Source: Spirochaetia bacterium | Lineage (GTDB): Bacteria > Spirochaetota > Spirochaetia > Sphaerochaetales > Sphaerochaetaceae | NCBI GenBank assembly: GCA_022482625.1 | Contig: JAKVOU010000001.1 | Location: 1,164,784 to 1,228,783, forward strand | Length of the DNA stretch: 64,000 bases | Direction of reading: 5' to 3' | Shown here: positions 20,860 through 27,971 of the stretch, piece by piece | Numbering within the stretch: the stretch's first letter is position 1 | Layout: each line of letters starts with the position of its first letter | Made by a program: the position numbers and the translations under genes | The notes under the pieces: model-generated | What the model saw: the letters and a program-made list of their open reading frames with translations, nothing else | Told to the model about the DNA's origin: nothing | Database searches by the model: none

Positions 20860-21012
20860 TCATAAGCTCCTTTCCGGTTTCCCAGTAAAATAACTCACAG
20901 TCACAATTACATGATAATCCCTTTACAAACTTTATATTAAACATCGACAAACAAATTGTAAATACAACTATCACCCTCAAAAGGCCGTTTGATGGAAAAT
21001 TTCCCTATTTGA

Positions 21013-21045
21013 TAAAAAGCAGGAGAAAGCCGAGCCCCCTCCTGC
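21013..21045 (-). terminator. Intrinsic terminator of the hibernation factor gene
   Basis: On the minus strand GCAGGAG pairs with CTCCTGC across a 13-base GC-rich loop and is followed by TTTTTATC. Confidence 0.8.
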
Positions 21046-21079
21046 AATATTTCAATGATTCCCGATTAAGCAGATGTAG

Positions 21080-21418
21080 CTAGGCCTGGGTTGCAAGTTC
21101 CTCCATAGGCAGGCGTTCACCCTTCTTGCCCTTGACCCGACCCTTTTCACGCTTGACGGTAATAACCAACTTATCGACGATGTTTTCAATACCCTCGTAG
21201 AGCTCATAGCAATCTACTCCGATAATTTTCACCGTTCCCCAGGAGAAATGCATTTTGGCATCGATATGATAACCTTGTCCGATTTTTTCACGAGTCATGA
21301 CAAATTCCAAGTCATGAAGGTAATCCTTTGCAAAATCCAACTTGGTAAGTTTCTTGTCCAGAAATTTCTGTGTTTCTTCACTCGGATTGTATCTCACGCC
21401 TCTTACTGTAATGTTCAT
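21080..21418 (-). CDS. hpf: Ribosome hibernation-promoting factor (HPF/RaiA, short form)
   Basis: 112 residues from the family start MNITVRG at 21418 (the open frame runs 39 codons further upstream without family similarity). The fold is the beta-alpha-beta-beta-beta-alpha of HPF: NITVRGVRYNPSEETQKFLD, then KKLTKLDF, HIDAKMHFSWGTVKIIG, and a Lys/Arg-rich C-terminal helix region. It lacks the dimerisation domain of long HPFs, so it resembles YfiA/short HPF. It binds the 30S decoding region in stationary phase. It has its own terminator and is transcribed away from hprK. Confidence 0.85.
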   Translation of the reverse strand: MNITVRGVRYNPSEETQKFLDKKLTKLDFAKDYLHDLEFVMTREKIGQGYHIDAKMHFSWGTVKIIGVDCYELYEGIENIVDKLVITVKREKGRVKGKKGERLPMEELATQA

Positions 21419-21523
21419 ACGCTCAATTGCCATTGATGTTGCCATTGGATATGGCAAGCAGGCTTTCCTCCATTGCATAAGTTTTTTACCAAGGATCCAA
21501 CGGATCCCGTCCTCTGCCGATAA

Positions 21524-21789
21524 AAAGAATTTCACATCGGCGCCATCAAGACATTACTTCTTCACTCACGCTCCCTTTTCTGCCATGCAGGTCAATATTC
21601 AAAAGGCCAAACGGCCAATCTGTACCAAGAGCAACTTACTGACTGGAGGCCAGCCGCTGCGCCCGATAGAAACAACTGCAGGTATTTTACCTGCCACAAC
21701 TGCTTCTATATAAAAGATACGGCCTCTTGCGATTTCTGTCAAATAAACTTTCATAAGCCTGTTTTCCATGTGGAAGAAAACAAATGTTA
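21524..21789 (+). CDS. Possible small zinc-ribbon coding frame (no canonical start)
   Basis: An 88-codon frame on the plus strand, opened by a TAA at 21521 and closed by the TAA at 21787. It contains a striking cysteine pattern, NNCRYFTCHNCFYIKD then TASCDFCQIN: C-x4-C-x2-C and C-x2-C, as in a zinc ribbon. No in-frame ATG, GTG or TTG is seen, so it is either a remnant, uses a rare start, or is entered by a frameshift from the ATG at 21585 in another frame. It ends before the hprK start. I do not recognise the family. Confidence 0.3.
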
Positions 21790-21861
21790 AGTTTAAACTT
21801 CACAGGCAAGTTTTTTTTTGCTATACTGAGGTCCATACTGCTTGGAAACTGGAGGGTATAT

Positions 21862-22845
21862 ATGACAACTTGTTCAATCTTAGAATTACTTGACATTGAC
21901 CTGAAAGAAAAAAACAAACTGGAACTTTCCTGCATAGCAGGCAGAAGTGGCTTGTCCAGAAAACTTACTTCAAGCAAGATAAGCCGTCCCGGCCTGCCGC
22001 TTGCCGGTTTCTTCGAAGCATTTGCAGAAAGTGCTGTCCAAGTCTTTGGACATGGCGAACAACGATACCTTGATATGCTTGAAAAAAAAGGCGACTACAA
22101 AAGCATTGAAAAAATGTTTTCCTATGAAATTCCCTGCTGCATATTCTGCCATGGCTACACACCGAGCGACAAATTCATCAAGATGGCAGAAGATGCAGGC
22201 ATCCCTATCCTGCGTACACCGCTTTATTCCTCAGATTTTTCCAGGAACCTATACCAGATGCTGGATGAGATATTTGCCCCTACAGAAACGATCCATGGGG
22301 TATTTGTTGAAGTCTATGGCATTGGTGTACTTATTCTTGGAGACAGTGGAGTCGGCAAAAGCGAAACTGCTCTTGAACTGATCGAAAGAGGACATCGTAT
22401 CATCAGCGATGATACAGTCAAGCTACGCAATATCAGCAATACATTCCTCATCGGAAGCGGTGAAAATCCAATGCTTGCCCATCACATGGAAATCCGAGGA
22501 ATCGGAATCATAAACTTGGCTAATATCTTCGGAGTAGGAGCAATACGAGATAAAAAACAAGTACAGCTCGTCGTCCATCTTGAAGAATGGGACGCAACAA
22601 AAGACTATGATAGGGTCGGGGAAGACACCATGAGTGAAACTTTCCTAGGCATTTCCATACCCAAATTAATTATACCTGTCAAACCAGGCCGAAATATCCC
22701 GATTATCATCGAAACGGCTGCCAGAAATGAACGTCTGAAGAAACTTGGTTATCACAGCGCAAAAGAATTTGACCAGAGTGTGCTTAAATGGTTTGAAAGT
22801 GAAACTGCAAAAAAAATGTACTACATAAACGAGGAGAGCATCTGA
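21862..22845 (+). CDS. hprK: HPr kinase/phosphorylase
   Basis: 327 residues from the ATG at 21862, preceded by GGAGGG; the frame is open 26 codons further but without family match. The N-terminal domain is of the usual type (SRPGLPLAGFFEAF). The P-loop is GDSGVGKS (about 157-164), followed by ALELIERGHRIISDD, and the HprK signature MEIRGIGIINLANIFGVGAI is present. It phosphorylates and dephosphorylates Ser-46 of HPr, which is encoded one base downstream with an intact Ser-46. This couples sugar supply to carbon control. Confidence 0.95.
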   Translation: MTTCSILELLDIDLKEKNKLELSCIAGRSGLSRKLTSSKISRPGLPLAGFFEAFAESAVQVFGHGEQRYLDMLEKKGDYKSIEKMFSYEIPCCIFCHGYTPSDKFIKMAEDAGIPILRTPLYSSDFSRNLYQMLDEIFAPTETIHGVFVEVYGIGVLILGDSGVGKSETALELIERGHRIISDDTVKLRNISNTFLIGSGENPMLAHHMEIRGIGIINLANIFGVGAIRDKKQVQLVVHLEEWDATKDYDRVGEDTMSETFLGISIPKLIIPVKPGRNIPIIIETAARNERLKKLGYHSAKEFDQSVLKWFESETAKKMYYINEESI

Positions 22846-22846
22846 C

Positions 22847-23110
22847 ATGGTTACACGCAATCTGGAAGTCTGCAACAGGGCAGGCATCCACGCCAGACCG
22901 GCTGCCATGATTGTAAAGGTTGCAAACAAATTTGCAAGCAACCTTTATATGGAAAAAGAAGACATGAAGATCAACGGAAAATCAATCATGGGAGTAATTA
23001 CACTTGGTGCAGGTTATAAAAGCAAGATCAAGATTACCTGTGATGGAAAAGATGAGGCTGCAATGGCTGACGCCTTGGAAAAGCTCTTCAAGAACCGTTT
23101 TGAGGAATAA
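22847..23110 (+). CDS. ptsH: Phosphocarrier protein HPr
   Basis: 87 residues, normal length. It has His-15 in NRAGIHARPAA, the site phosphorylated by PEP via enzyme I, and Ser-46 in KINGKSIMGV, the HprK site. ITLGAGYKSKIKI follows. Both sites are intact, so it can act in PTS transfer and in HprK signalling. It starts one base after the hprK stop. No enzyme I or enzyme II gene is in the window. Confidence 0.95.
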   Translation: MVTRNLEVCNRAGIHARPAAMIVKVANKFASNLYMEKEDMKINGKSIMGVITLGAGYKSKIKITCDGKDEAAMADALEKLFKNRFEE

Positions 23111-23119
23111 GGGTAACCA

Positions 23120-23737
23120 ATGAAACAGATTACTCCAAGACAAAAGGAAATCCTTGAATACATAAGGGATTTCATTAGAGAAAATGAATTCAGTCCCTCA
23201 ACCAGGGACATAAGTGAACATTTTCATTTTTCAGTGAAGGCTGCATATGATCATCTGCAGGCACTGGAAAGCAAAAGCTTGATTTCCTCAATACCAGGTA
23301 TTTCCAGGTCGGTAAAAATCATTGATCCCCAGTTTTCTCCATATGAGGATGTCATGTCCATTCCGATCACAGACAGCGAACTACATGAAACAAAGAAAAA
23401 CGGGAAAAATCTCCTTTACCTTTCCAAGAAACTATTGCCTGAAGAGGATTCATGCGAGTACATCATCACGATGATCAAGGATGATGCACTTTCAGATGAA
23501 GGCATCTACTATGGTGATGTTGCAGCAATCAAGCTTACTGATAAAATTCATGAAGGACAAATCGTTTTGGCAGAAAGCAAGCAACTTGGCCCTCTTGTTC
23601 GGTTCTACCATGAAGAAAAAGGTATTCCATATCTGACCGTATCGAACATATCGCTTTCATCCATCCCTTTGACTGCAGACATTGAAATCAAGGGTACGCT
23701 TTCCCTTCTGTTCAGACAATTCAGGGACCTCTCATGA
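23120..23737 (+). CDS. LexA-like repressor lacking the autocleavage Ser-Lys dyad
   Basis: 205 residues. The N-terminal winged helix is LexA-like (TPRQKEILEYIRDFIRENEF, SPSTRDISEHF). The C-terminal half aligns with the LexA/S24 peptidase fold around DDALSDEGIYYGDVAAI (121-137), where LexA has GxSMxDxGIxxGDxxAV. The catalytic Ser position is Ala-123, and the Lys of the VKR motif is Arg-161 in LVRFY. The Ala-Gly cleavage site in the linker is also missing. Autocleavage by RecA is therefore not expected, and the protein may be a stable repressor or have another trigger. It sits in the hprK-ptsH-holA operon and overlaps holA by 4 bases. An ordinary LexA may exist elsewhere. Confidence 0.75.
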   Translation: MKQITPRQKEILEYIRDFIRENEFSPSTRDISEHFHFSVKAAYDHLQALESKSLISSIPGISRSVKIIDPQFSPYEDVMSIPITDSELHETKKNGKNLLYLSKKLLPEEDSCEYIITMIKDDALSDEGIYYGDVAAIKLTDKIHEGQIVLAESKQLGPLVRFYHEEKGIPYLTVSNISLSSIPLTADIEIKGTLSLLFRQFRDLS

Positions 23738-24795
23738 GTCAAAGAGTCTATCTGTTGCTAGGTCCGGAAGCTGGAGAAAAGGCAGAGCGTGTATGGCAAA
23801 TCAAGAACCAGCTTACAAAAGAGCTGAAACTACAGCCTCAGGTATATAAATTCTATCCTTTCGAAGGAAAGGACAATGAGTTGTACATCGAGTTGAACAA
23901 TATCGATCTGTTCAGCCCACATAGTCTTGTCATCCTAAGCCAGGCAGAAACGATGAACGAACAGCAGGCAAAGGATTTGCTTGCCTATGTGCAGGCCCCT
24001 TCTCCATCCTCAACGCTCATCATCCTCAGTGATGAAACCAAATTGCCATCAGCAACAATGACCAGGATACAAAACCAGATCAAGCAGCAGTTCCCACCGG
24101 AATCCTTTGCTGTTTTCTGGGAACTGAAAGAGGAACAACTTGCAGGCTGGGTAAATACTTTCTTTGCCCAGCAAGGACTGCTTATAGACCAACCAGCAAC
24201 AGAGTTGCTGCTTGATCTGGTAGACAACAATACCATGGAACTGAAAGTTACCTGCAGACAGTTGGCATTCTTCTGGCAAGTCAACGAAAAAGGCAACAGC
24301 ATCACTGAAAATGATATTGAAACCTATGTCCATCATACAAGGGAAGAAAATGCCTTTACCTTGTTCGCGGCCATGGCAAGCGGCTCACTCAGTGAAGCCA
24401 TCGGTATAGCTGATGTTATCTTGGAACGGTCAAACAATGCCCAGTATACCCTCATCGGTGGTCTGATATGGTGCTGGAGACGGTTGCAGAGCATTGCGGA
24501 ACAACTTGAAACAGGGAGCAACCAACGGGAGGCATTCCAAGAAGCTACAGTCTTGGGAAAAAGATCAAGTATTCGCCGTCCTTCTGATTTCAAGATTTAC
24601 ACAGCAGCGCTGAACCGCTACGATGCAGCAGCATGCAGAAGAATACTTGCCCTGCTCTTTTCCGCAGATGTCATACTCAGAAAAGAAACAGGTGACCTGC
24701 AAAAATTGGAATTAGAAAAACTTGTCATAGATATAATGGTAAACAAAGGCAAGAAAATCCCTGAGCTACGAGGGGCGACTTTTGCTGTCTTGTAG
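23734..24795 (+). CDS. holA: DNA polymerase III delta subunit
   Basis: 353 residues, the usual size for HolA. The N-terminal domain has LLLGPEAGEKAERVWQIKN in place of a Walker A, as is normal for the non-hydrolysing delta subunit. FSPHSLVILSQAETM and TLIILSDETKLPSATM follow. Middle and C-terminal helical domains include LLDLVDNNTMELKVTCRQL and RKETGDLQKLELEKLVIDIM. Delta opens the sliding clamp within the clamp loader. It overlaps the LexA-like gene by 4 bases and ends the operon, tail-to-tail with uvrC (11 bases apart). Confidence 0.9.
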   Translation: MSQRVYLLLGPEAGEKAERVWQIKNQLTKELKLQPQVYKFYPFEGKDNELYIELNNIDLFSPHSLVILSQAETMNEQQAKDLLAYVQAPSPSSTLIILSDETKLPSATMTRIQNQIKQQFPPESFAVFWELKEEQLAGWVNTFFAQQGLLIDQPATELLLDLVDNNTMELKVTCRQLAFFWQVNEKGNSITENDIETYVHHTREENAFTLFAAMASGSLSEAIGIADVILERSNNAQYTLIGGLIWCWRRLQSIAEQLETGSNQREAFQEATVLGKRSSIRRPSDFKIYTAALNRYDAAACRRILALLFSADVILRKETGDLQKLELEKLVIDIMVNKGKKIPELRGATFAVL

Positions 24796-24806
24796 CAGAA
24801 GCATCT

Positions 24807-26645
24807 TCACAAGCTCAGCTTGTCAATCAATCTTTTTGCTACAGGAACGGGGATACCTGCCTGTGAAGCAATTTCCTCAGGCGAACTTGCCAATATGGCA
24901 TCGACACTTCCATAGACCTGCATAAGTTTCCGACTACGTTGTTCTCCTACGCCTTTTATGCTTTCAAGCAAGGTAAAAGCAACTTCCTTGCTCCGCAAAT
25001 TCTGGTTGGCAGAGGTCGCAAAACGATGGCACTCATCACGGATTGCAATAAGCAGTTGCAAAGCCGGGGAATGTTCCGGAAGCAACAGGCTCTCTCCCTC
25101 ACCGGGAAAAACGATTTCTTCCAAACGCTTTGCAAGGCCAATGACCGGTATCTCGCTCATACCTAAATCATCCAAGACACCTACTACAGCGTTCACCTGC
25201 CCCTTTCCGCCGTCAATGACTACCAGGGAAGGCCATTGTAATCCTTCATTCAGTATATCTTGGTACCTTCTGGTTGCAGCTTCCCTCATCGACTGGAAAT
25301 CATCAATCTTGCCACCTAAACTTCTTATATTGAATCTTCGGTAGCCCTGCTTGTCCGGTTTCCCGTCCCTAAAGGAAATAAGGGAAGCAACGGTGTACTT
25401 GCCAGACAATTGTGCAATATCAAAACCTTCGATCAATACAGGCAATGAAGGCAAGTCAAGTGCCTGCTGCAAAGCCTCAAGTGCAACGCTGTTGTCTGTA
25501 CTGCGTAGCCGCTTTTCAACATCCCTGGTTGCATTCTCACCCGCCATTCGAAGGATACGATAGTGCTTGCCATCAACCGGCTTCAGTACCTGAAGCTTCC
25601 CTCCCAATTGCTCATCAAAGAATCTTGCTATCGACATACTGTCAATATCATGTGAAACATAAAGCTGTTTAGGAAGTCGCTGACCATCCGCATAGTACCG
25701 AAGAAGGAACCCTTGTAAAGTTTCAGTCTCATCACCAAGCGTCTCCCCTCGATACAAGGCACGTCCCATCAAGGCACCATCTCTCACTTGCATCAAGGAA
25801 ATGGAATATAATGGGCCTCTCATTTCGATTGCCGCATAATCCCTTGCTTCCTGCTGCTGATCCTCCACTGTCTGATTCGTTGCCATGGTAACCAAGGCCC
25901 GTAAAAGATCCCTTTTCTTGGCAGCCTCTTCAAACTTCAGCTCTTTACCAAGACTCAGCATTTCCTTTTCGGTTTCCCTGATAAGCCGGTCATTGTCCCC
26001 GTTAAGGAATTTCTTTACCTTCTCTACGGATTGGGCATAGGCCTCCTTGCTGATCATCCCACAACAAGGAGCAGAACAGCGACCGATATGATAATACAGA
26101 CAGGGATGGTCACGCCGCTTCATCGGTGAAGCACACTTACGGAGCCTGAACATAGTATTGACAAGTTCAAGGTAGGTATCAAGGCTCCCAACGCCTGGAT
26201 AGGGCCCGAAATACAGCGACCCATCTTTTATCAGCCGACGGGTCTTGAAGACTTTCGGAAAATCCTCTTTGGTAATCCTAATCATCGGATAACTCTTGCC
26301 ATCCTTGAGATCTATATTATAATGCGGATTATACTTCTTTATCAGGTTGTTTTCCAACACCAATGCTTCATACTCATTACCGGTAATGATGTGCTCAATA
26401 CGATGGATTTTCTCTACCAGTGCGGCAGTCTTTGCATTTCGTCCCGAAAGGAAGTAGCTCATTACACGTTTTCTGAGATTTTTTGCCTTGCCGACATAGA
26501 TGACGGTCCCATCCTTGTCCAGCATCAAGTATACCCCGCTGTTTCCAGGCAAGGCCTTTGCCTGATCTGCAGGCTTGAGGAACTGTTCAGCGACGCTTTC
26601 TCCCAAGCTGGCAACCTCAGCATTGTTTTCCCTGACATACTTCAT
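24807..26645 (-). CDS. uvrC: UvrABC excinuclease subunit C
   Basis: About 612 residues (an earlier in-frame start at 26681 adds 12; the choice is uncertain). The GIY-YIG domain is at the N terminus (SGVYLMLDKDGTVIYVGKAK). A Cys-rich stretch CLYYHIGRCSAPCCG follows, then a UVR motif (KFEEAAKKRDLLRAL), an RNase H-like nuclease domain (GFDIAQLSGKYTVASLISF, VVIDGGKGQVNAV), and a C-terminal HhH pair (LLESIKGVGEQRSRKLMQ, EEIASQAGIPVPVAKRL). It makes the dual incisions in nucleotide excision repair. UvrA and UvrB are not in the window. It is divergent from the radical SAM gene. Confidence 0.95.
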   Translation of the reverse strand: MKYVRENNAEVASLGESVAEQFLKPADQAKALPGNSGVYLMLDKDGTVIYVGKAKNLRKRVMSYFLSGRNAKTAALVEKIHRIEHIITGNEYEALVLENNLIKKYNPHYNIDLKDGKSYPMIRITKEDFPKVFKTRRLIKDGSLYFGPYPGVGSLDTYLELVNTMFRLRKCASPMKRRDHPCLYYHIGRCSAPCCGMISKEAYAQSVEKVKKFLNGDNDRLIRETEKEMLSLGKELKFEEAAKKRDLLRALVTMATNQTVEDQQQEARDYAAIEMRGPLYSISLMQVRDGALMGRALYRGETLGDETETLQGFLLRYYADGQRLPKQLYVSHDIDSMSIARFFDEQLGGKLQVLKPVDGKHYRILRMAGENATRDVEKRLRSTDNSVALEALQQALDLPSLPVLIEGFDIAQLSGKYTVASLISFRDGKPDKQGYRRFNIRSLGGKIDDFQSMREAATRRYQDILNEGLQWPSLVVIDGGKGQVNAVVGVLDDLGMSEIPVIGLAKRLEEIVFPGEGESLLLPEHSPALQLLIAIRDECHRFATSANQNLRSKEVAFTLLESIKGVGEQRSRKLMQVYGSVDAILASSPEEIASQAGIPVPVAKRLIDKLSL

Positions 26646-26699
26646 ACTCCAAAGCATAGTCATTTTGACAACAGTGGGCAAGCTTGCTACACTGTAGCA

Positions 26700-27971
26700 A
26701 TGAATTCAATCAGCACATATCCTGTTTACCTTTCACTCCCTGAGGATAGGAAAAAGGAAATTGACAGGCTTGTCCAAACATATCATTTTACCTATCAGCA
26801 GGAAAAATTCCTTGCAGACAGTTCAGCCGACCTGGCTTTGTGGCAACAGGGCTTGCTTGGTGACCATGCCGACATGGAACAGGCAAAAGGCGAAGGCAAG
26901 CAGAAAGCAGGCAATTTCTGCAGACTGTTACAGAAAAGCATCGACAGACTGCGAAAAGAACCGACAGACTATAGTAATTTCATCCCACCTGAAATACATC
27001 CTGACAAATACAAAGACATCATGGACATGGACGACCATATAAAGCTTCTCGGCAGTTGTCCTTGTCCTAAGGACGGGGAATTGACCCGCTGCTGCAACCT
27101 CAAGACCCTTGATGCCGTACAGCAATGTGCCTTTGCCTGCAGCTATTGTTCCATTCAGTCGTTCTACCAAAGCCACGAAATACGGGTCGTAGGCAACCTG
27201 AAGGAACGCTTGGAAAAACTTGAGCTTGATGAAGGCACTTGGCATATCGGAACAGGACAGTCATCTGATTCCCTGTTATGGGGCAATGATTATGGTACGC
27301 TTGATGCCCTCAATATTCTCTGCCGACGTTATCCTCAGCTGATCATCGAGCTTAAGACGAAAAGTGCAAGGACCGATTGGATGGATACAATCAGGCTTGA
27401 TGATCATATTGTTGCCTCATGGTCACTTAATGCTGAGACAATTGCGAAGAAGGAAGAACGGCTTGCTTCCCCTGTAATAGAAAGACTGAAAGCAGCAAGA
27501 AAAGCTGCGGACCATCACATACCTATAGGATTTCACTTGCACCCGATTGTCATGTTCAAGGGATGGCAGGAAGAATATGGCAAATTGGTAGAAACAATCA
27601 CAGAAAACTTTGCTCCGGAAGAAGTAGTCATGGTATCCCTCGGCACACTCACCTTTACGAAAAGCGTGCTTCGCAAGCTTCGCCAAGAAGGGCGCCCAAG
27701 CAGGATACTGCAAATGGAATTAAGTGAAGTTGCCGGCAAATATTCTTACCCGCTCCAAACGAAGGAAATATTCTTTCCATTCATCTATTCACTGTTCCCT
27801 GAGAGCTGGAAACAGGAACATACGAAGCCTTTCTACTACCTCTGCATGGAAGATCCTTCCTTATGGATGCCGACCTTCGGCTACAGTTACAGGAACAACA
27901 GTGTTTTCGAACAGGCAATGAGGACAGCTTATACGGAAAAGGTACAGACGATTGCCGCCTCAAAGCACTGA
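26700..27971 (+). CDS. SPL-family (spore photoproduct lyase-like) radical SAM protein
   Basis: 423 residues from the ATG at 26700; the longer open frame upstream antisense to uvrC is not coding. The [4Fe-4S] motif is CAFACSYCS (C-x3-C-x2-C, about residue 147), followed by NYGTL-like and SLNAETIAKKEER, which match the SPL family (spore photoproduct lyase repairs the UV dimer 5-thyminyl-5,6-dihydrothymine). It is longer at the N terminus than classic SplB. Spirochaetes do not sporulate, so the substrate is unknown; another DNA lesion or a modification reaction is possible. It is next to uvrC, which fits but does not prove a repair role. Confidence 0.8.
   Translation: MNSISTYPVYLSLPEDRKKEIDRLVQTYHFTYQQEKFLADSSADLALWQQGLLGDHADMEQAKGEGKQKAGNFCRLLQKSIDRLRKEPTDYSNFIPPEIHPDKYKDIMDMDDHIKLLGSCPCPKDGELTRCCNLKTLDAVQQCAFACSYCSIQSFYQSHEIRVVGNLKERLEKLELDEGTWHIGTGQSSDSLLWGNDYGTLDALNILCRRYPQLIIELKTKSARTDWMDTIRLDDHIVASWSLNAETIAKKEERLASPVIERLKAARKAADHHIPIGFHLHPIVMFKGWQEEYGKLVETITENFAPEEVVMVSLGTLTFTKSVLRKLRQEGRPSRILQMELSEVAGKYSYPLQTKEIFFPFIYSLFPESWKQEHTKPFYYLCMEDPSLWMPTFGYSYRNNSVFEQAMRTAYTEKVQTIAASKH

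Follow-up and report, generated by a model that had tools for sequence, protein, structure and literature searches.

A LexA orthologue that has lost its self-cleavage residues in a Sphaerochaetaceae spirochaete, and stepwise and repeated loss among its relatives

Within the literature searched, natural loss of LexA self-cleavage has so far been described mainly in one cyanobacterium. The LexA of Synechocystis sp. PCC 6803, the closest known case, carries Gly-Gly for Ala-Gly and Asp for Ser, and is reported not to regulate SOS genes (PMC3091678, PMC4759255). Among other spirochaete LexA proteins, LexA1 and LexA2 of Leptospira interrogans both appear to self-cleave after UV, LexA2 keeping the Ser and Lys with Cys-Gly as the probable scissile bond (PMC3789691), and the 'non-canonical LexAs' of Bacteroidetes retain all cleavage residues (PMC8565304). 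No report on LexA of Sphaerochaeta-type spirochaetes was found in the open-licence literature. In E. coli, LexA S119A and G85D are uncleavable forms in which one element is changed.

The window analysed here is a stretch of 64,000 nucleotides from a 98.6%-complete genome (3 contigs, 3.47 Mb), whose host genus is probably Pleomorphochaeta (Sphaerochaetaceae). Its lexA gene is an intact open reading frame of 205 codons on the forward strand (23120..23737, ATG to TGA), and the 205-aa product resembles LexA over its full length in profile, PDB sequence and structure comparisons. The N-terminal winged helix-turn-helix (wHTH) DNA-binding domain (aa 1-69; 23120..23326, + strand) matched PF01726 over aa 1-63 with 56.8 bits against a cutoff of 23.7 and retains nearly all near-invariant positions. 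The fast-evolving S24/LexA-fold C-terminal domain (about aa 111-205; 23450..23734, + strand), recognised from PF00717, the AF2 model and the alignment, gave a weak match to PF00717 (26.3 bits, cutoff 23.3). The curated LexA equivalog TIGR00498 was matched with an E value of 1e-24, but its 87.2 bits fall below the cutoff of 110.95. The sequence matches in the PDB were LexA repressors, and the AF2 model (pLDDT 88.4, pTM 0.66) was best matched by LexA structures, with 3k2z at Z 16.5, the E. coli LexA C-domain 1jhc at Z 14.6 and the DNA-binding domain structure 1lea at Z 12.1. According to PDB titles, the S119A and G85D forms of E. coli LexA were solved as mutants.

All three elements of self-cleavage are replaced in this protein. 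The column of the catalytic Ser holds Ala123 (codon GCA, 23486..23488, + strand) in every alignment, and His89-Glu90 (23384..23389, + strand) replaces the Ala-Gly (or Cys-Gly) of the scissile bond. In the three nearest homologues, Lys follows Ser at a gapless distance of 38 residues, and the same distance from Ala123 leads to Arg161 (23600..23602, + strand); in one alignment, made with more distant relatives and their TLKRFY consensus, Val160 falls in the Lys column, and there is no Lys either way. Misalignment or chance was ruled out by alignment with 50 relatives of the class and E. coli LexA and by the gapless Ser-to-Lys spacing relative to the congeners, and because Ala-Gly, Ser and Lys are all present in 33/33 other members of the family from genera besides g1, g12, g14 and g17 and in 17/18 members of other families (50/51 sampled relatives outside the affected genera). 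The initial annotation had described Ala-123 for Ser, Arg-161 for Lys, a missing Ala-Gly site and remaining signs of the LexA fold; its residue numbers are right, alignment with LexA places no Ser or Lys at the catalytic positions, and PF01726, PF00717 and the AF2 model agree on the fold. Judging from these residues, the window LexA would be unable to self-cleave. It is similar to the Synechocystis LexA in that Ala-Gly and the catalytic Ser are absent from the lexA of the genome, and differs from it in also lacking the Lys, in coming from another phylum and in having intermediate relatives.

The gene follows hprK (HPr kinase/phosphorylase, 21862..22845, + strand) and ptsH (HPr, 22847..23110, + strand) and precedes holA (DNA polymerase III delta, 23734..24795, + strand), with the lexA stop codon (23735-23737) overlapping the holA ATG at 23734; the convergent uvrC (24807..26681, - strand) is also a member of the conserved block. 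The hprK-ptsH-lexA-holA order with convergent uvrC is common to most of the Sphaerochaetaceae and to some other families of the class, and the LexA inside this block in relatives is of the canonical, cleavable type. Since the block is shared with canonical LexAs, the window gene is the orthologous lexA and not a recruited paralogue; gene block, single copy and tree agree on this orthology, and the gene was vertically inherited in a Pleomorphochaeta-type spirochaete. The location between ptsH and holA had initially been taken as a hint of recruitment to carbon or replication control, which is not supported, since canonical LexAs occupy the same place in most of the family and the position is therefore ancestral and uninformative on recruitment. 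A radical SAM protein resembling spore photoproduct lyase is encoded beside uvrC and thyX (window 26322-27971, + strand); the start of this frame overlaps the opposite-strand uvrC, and the true start is probably downstream.

Across the family, 139 Sphaerochaetaceae genomes were searched and 88 family lexA genes were classified. Three congeners are intermediate, keeping Ser and Lys with Ser-Gly in place of Ala-Gly. Ala-Gly and Lys are missing from the LexAs of genus g12 (15/15) and genus g17 (34/34 read), with Ser retained in 28 of these 49; in genus g14 (2 read) Ala-Gly is lost and the other residues are ambiguous, and one LexA from another family (L037) has lost all three elements. In the LexA tree, the window genus (SH-aLRT 99) nests among the canonical LexAs, apart from g12, g17 and g14; the relative positions of the degenerate LexAs are unsafe there because of long branches. 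The RecA tree, which is independent of them, joins g12 and g17 as sisters (99/93) and places the window genus across the family, with canonical genera. The two placements together indicate at least two independent losses within the family, and g14 may be a third. The LexAs of g12 and g17 are like the window LexA in having no Ala-Gly, a replaced Lys (mostly by Arg) and, in L045, L049 and L052, the hprK-ptsH-lexA-holA order, and unlike it in their independent loss, their diverged recognition helix and the Ser kept in most g17 members read; no family-type box lies upstream in L045, L049 and L052. Diverged recognition helices, besides the missing Ala-Gly and Lys, were observed in L122-L158, L160-L161, L174-L181, L045, L049 and L052, and these g12 and g17 proteins may form a large group of new regulators. 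One g17 draft genome (G095) has a fully canonical LexA of another type (L159; VACG, GDSM, TLKRF), probably a contaminant. Scans of genome contigs with a single protein and with an alignment returned no relatives.

A position weight matrix (PWM) was built from 13 family LexA boxes with the window genus left out. In canonical relatives, the box reads CTTAACnnnnGTTAAG upstream of a lexA not preceded by hprK-ptsH (L027, L028, L046) and, if lexA belongs to the operon, ACTTAACAAACGCTMACA at about 60 bp ahead of hprK; one or the other was seen upstream of lexA or hprK in L027, L028, L046, L012, L014 and L016-L020. In the window, the PWM gave a predicted LexA operator AGAAAACAAATGTTAAGT (21775..21792, + strand), with an intact right half-site GTTAAG and a weakened left half. 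It scored 11.7 bits and was the only match of at least 9 bits in the 64 kb, with a modest shuffle p of 0.012. It lies about 80-90 bp upstream of hprK, some 30 bp further than in most canonical relatives, and two congeners have sites comparable in position (TGTCAACATTTGTTAATG and TGTCTACATTTGTTAATG), while no clear operator site was found in the third (L004). A 20-bp near-perfect palindrome TGTTAAGTTTAAACTTCACA (21785..21804, + strand; 9/10 pairs, shuffle p 0.008) overlaps the operator and the -35 element and could be an alternative operator or, given its different layout, the site of another regulator. The operator lies against a candidate sigma-70-like promoter of the operon, TTCACA-17-TATACT (21799..21827, + strand), which was assigned by consensus match only. 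Rfam gave no match in window 21000-25000. In a canonical relative (G024), a perfect TTAACGGACGTTAA lies about 150 bp upstream of mraZ (L092:1501-1514), where LexA control of the division cluster is possible, as is chance.

Among canonical relatives, G012 and G022 carry the family LexA box at umuD (13.4 and 16.2 bits), and G005 and G020 carry it ahead of a DUF72-imuB-like operon (11.4 and 9.5 bits). The boxes upstream of the DUF72-imuB-like operon and umuDC in canonical relatives are at L197:2771-2788, L196:2770-2787, L193:2327-2344 and L194:2433-2450, and the operon of G020 includes a DnaE-like gene. A clear recA-linked SOS box was not found even in canonical relatives, and the SOS regulon of the family appears to include translesion polymerases without a clear box at recA. 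Canonical family members possess the components of a LexA-RecA circuit, whose likely targets include translesion polymerases.

In the window genome, recA and dinB are present, and DinB and a UvrX-like enzyme are the only Y-family polymerases. The UvrX-like gene (L198:1465-3425, G000) is followed by a small YolD-resembling ORF and has no umuD beside it. No umuD was found in this genome, the imuB-like operon that bears a box in relatives is absent, no RecA-cleavable S24 substrate was found, and the PWM gave no LexA box at recA, dinB or the UvrX-like polymerase. The initial annotation had also raised the question of a true LexA elsewhere in the genome. None was found, and the window protein is the sole LexA and the sole S24-peptidase match found in the 98.6%-complete genome; a second, weak PF01726 match (24.5 bits) falls in a 221-aa frame that lacks any S24 match. 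The initial reading that the protein has ceased to be a classical SOS repressor is well supported, there being no dyad, no cleavage site, no umuD, no other LexA or S24 protein and no box found at recA or the two Y-family polymerase genes. The congeners (L162-L164) keep umuDC, their UmuD having canonical Cys-Gly and Ser-Lys and their LexA Ser-Gly; with UmuD intact in this way, RecA coprotease activity should remain useful there.

Taken together, the window LexA is probably what remains of a dismantled SOS circuit, an autoregulatory DNA-binding protein deaf to RecA. It is predicted to keep the LexA fold, and its conserved winged helix very probably still allows dimeric binding to DNA, with the predicted LexA-type operator upstream of hprK as the best-supported target. 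At this site it would constitutively repress hprK-ptsH-lexA-holA, its own gene included. Since a LexA without self-cleavage cannot be relieved by RecA filaments, derepression would need another route, be it the amount of protein, a different protease, a ligand or competition from RNA polymerase. Selection for cleavage may have been relaxed by the loss of the translesion-polymerase targets.

That the protein was repurposed, with a signal of its own and many new targets in carbon metabolism or another process, seems unlikely. The Synechocystis LexA, likewise without Ala-Gly and Ser, controls non-SOS genes (PMC4759255, PMC3091678), the predicted operator would put hprK and ptsH under control, and the C-domain fold is retained despite the missing catalytic parts, all of which is consistent with repurposing. 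However, when patterns and a few promoters were used to sample the genome-wide regulon, the core of AGAAAACAAATGTTAAGT was found exactly once in the genome and family-type sites were no commoner than a reversed-pattern control, exact TTAACN4GTTAA giving one site, fewer than its control, and TGTTAAGN6CTTMACA with up to 2 mismatches being no commoner than its own. The family-like recognition helix and the ancestral ptsH-holA position also argue against repurposing, and unlike the large new regulon of Synechocystis, the evidence in the window points to one retained autoregulatory operator. Of the carbon or replication control proposed initially, this much stands: with a predicted operator upstream of hprK the operon is probably controlled, although the same is true of the cleavable ancestors. 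A broader proposal, that the SOS switch of the family was dismantled repeatedly, in the window genus from scissile bond to dyad with the DNA-binding domain and an autoregulatory operator persisting, and that the uncleavable LexAs became carbon- or replication-linked regulators of hprK-ptsH-lexA-holA with a new inducing signal, is doubtful as a whole.

The constraint on the two domains bears on whether the protein regulates at all. In mean identity to 27 canonical relatives, the DNA-binding domain of the window LexA (51.5%) is close to those of the congeners (53-55%), while its C-domain reaches 27.9% against about 41% in congeners and 52-62% among canonical members; among the 186 canonical pairs whose DNA-binding domains share 50-66% identity, C-domain identity is always at least 41%. 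The end branch of the window genome measures 1.34 in LexA and 0.13 in RecA. The decay is limited to the hinge and the C-terminal domain, and the scissile pair and the dyad are among the near-invariant positions that changed; many of the retained C-domain positions are structural, namely G128, I129, G132, D133, A135, G146, I148, A151, L172, G192, L194 and R199. Compared with canonical LexAs (E. coli; Sphaerochaeta-type relatives), the window LexA is alike in being the synteny orthologue, in its wHTH and S24 fold and in a predicted family-type operator at the same operon, and unlike in the replacement of all three self-cleavage elements and the C-domain identity of 28% to canonical relatives. 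The contrast between the two domains suggests that constraint on DNA binding persisted and that on the protease part was lifted. A decaying passenger without regulatory function, its frame persisting only through translational coupling of lexA to holA, would fit the overlapping stop and start codons and the strong divergence of C-domain and hinge, but it is improbable, as a DNA-binding domain conserved about as in congeners is unexpected for a passenger, and the structural core of the C-domain is kept and the top operator match lies upstream of the operon. A DNA-damage switch retained through an unusual cleavage mechanism or cutting in trans is very improbable, for although the fold is retained and other proteases could act, none of Ser, Lys and Ala-Gly remains, where the single-element E. 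coli mutants S119A and G85D are already uncleavable, and no further S24 protein that might act in trans was found. What counts for cleavage in trans is that HdiR of Lactococcus requires Clp for full derepression (PMC8565304).

A RecA-deaf autoregulatory remnant in the window genome would be one end of a range found within a single spirochaete family, which spans cleavable LexAs, Ser-Gly congeners with the dyad and several lineages with nothing left. As the family lexA is encoded with hprK, ptsH and holA, DNA damage may co-induce these genes in the cleavable relatives. Whether an uncleavable LexA acts as a super-repressor, a shrunken autoregulator or a new regulator can be tested here, and the order in which an SOS circuit is dismantled is directly testable in the Sphaerochaetaceae.
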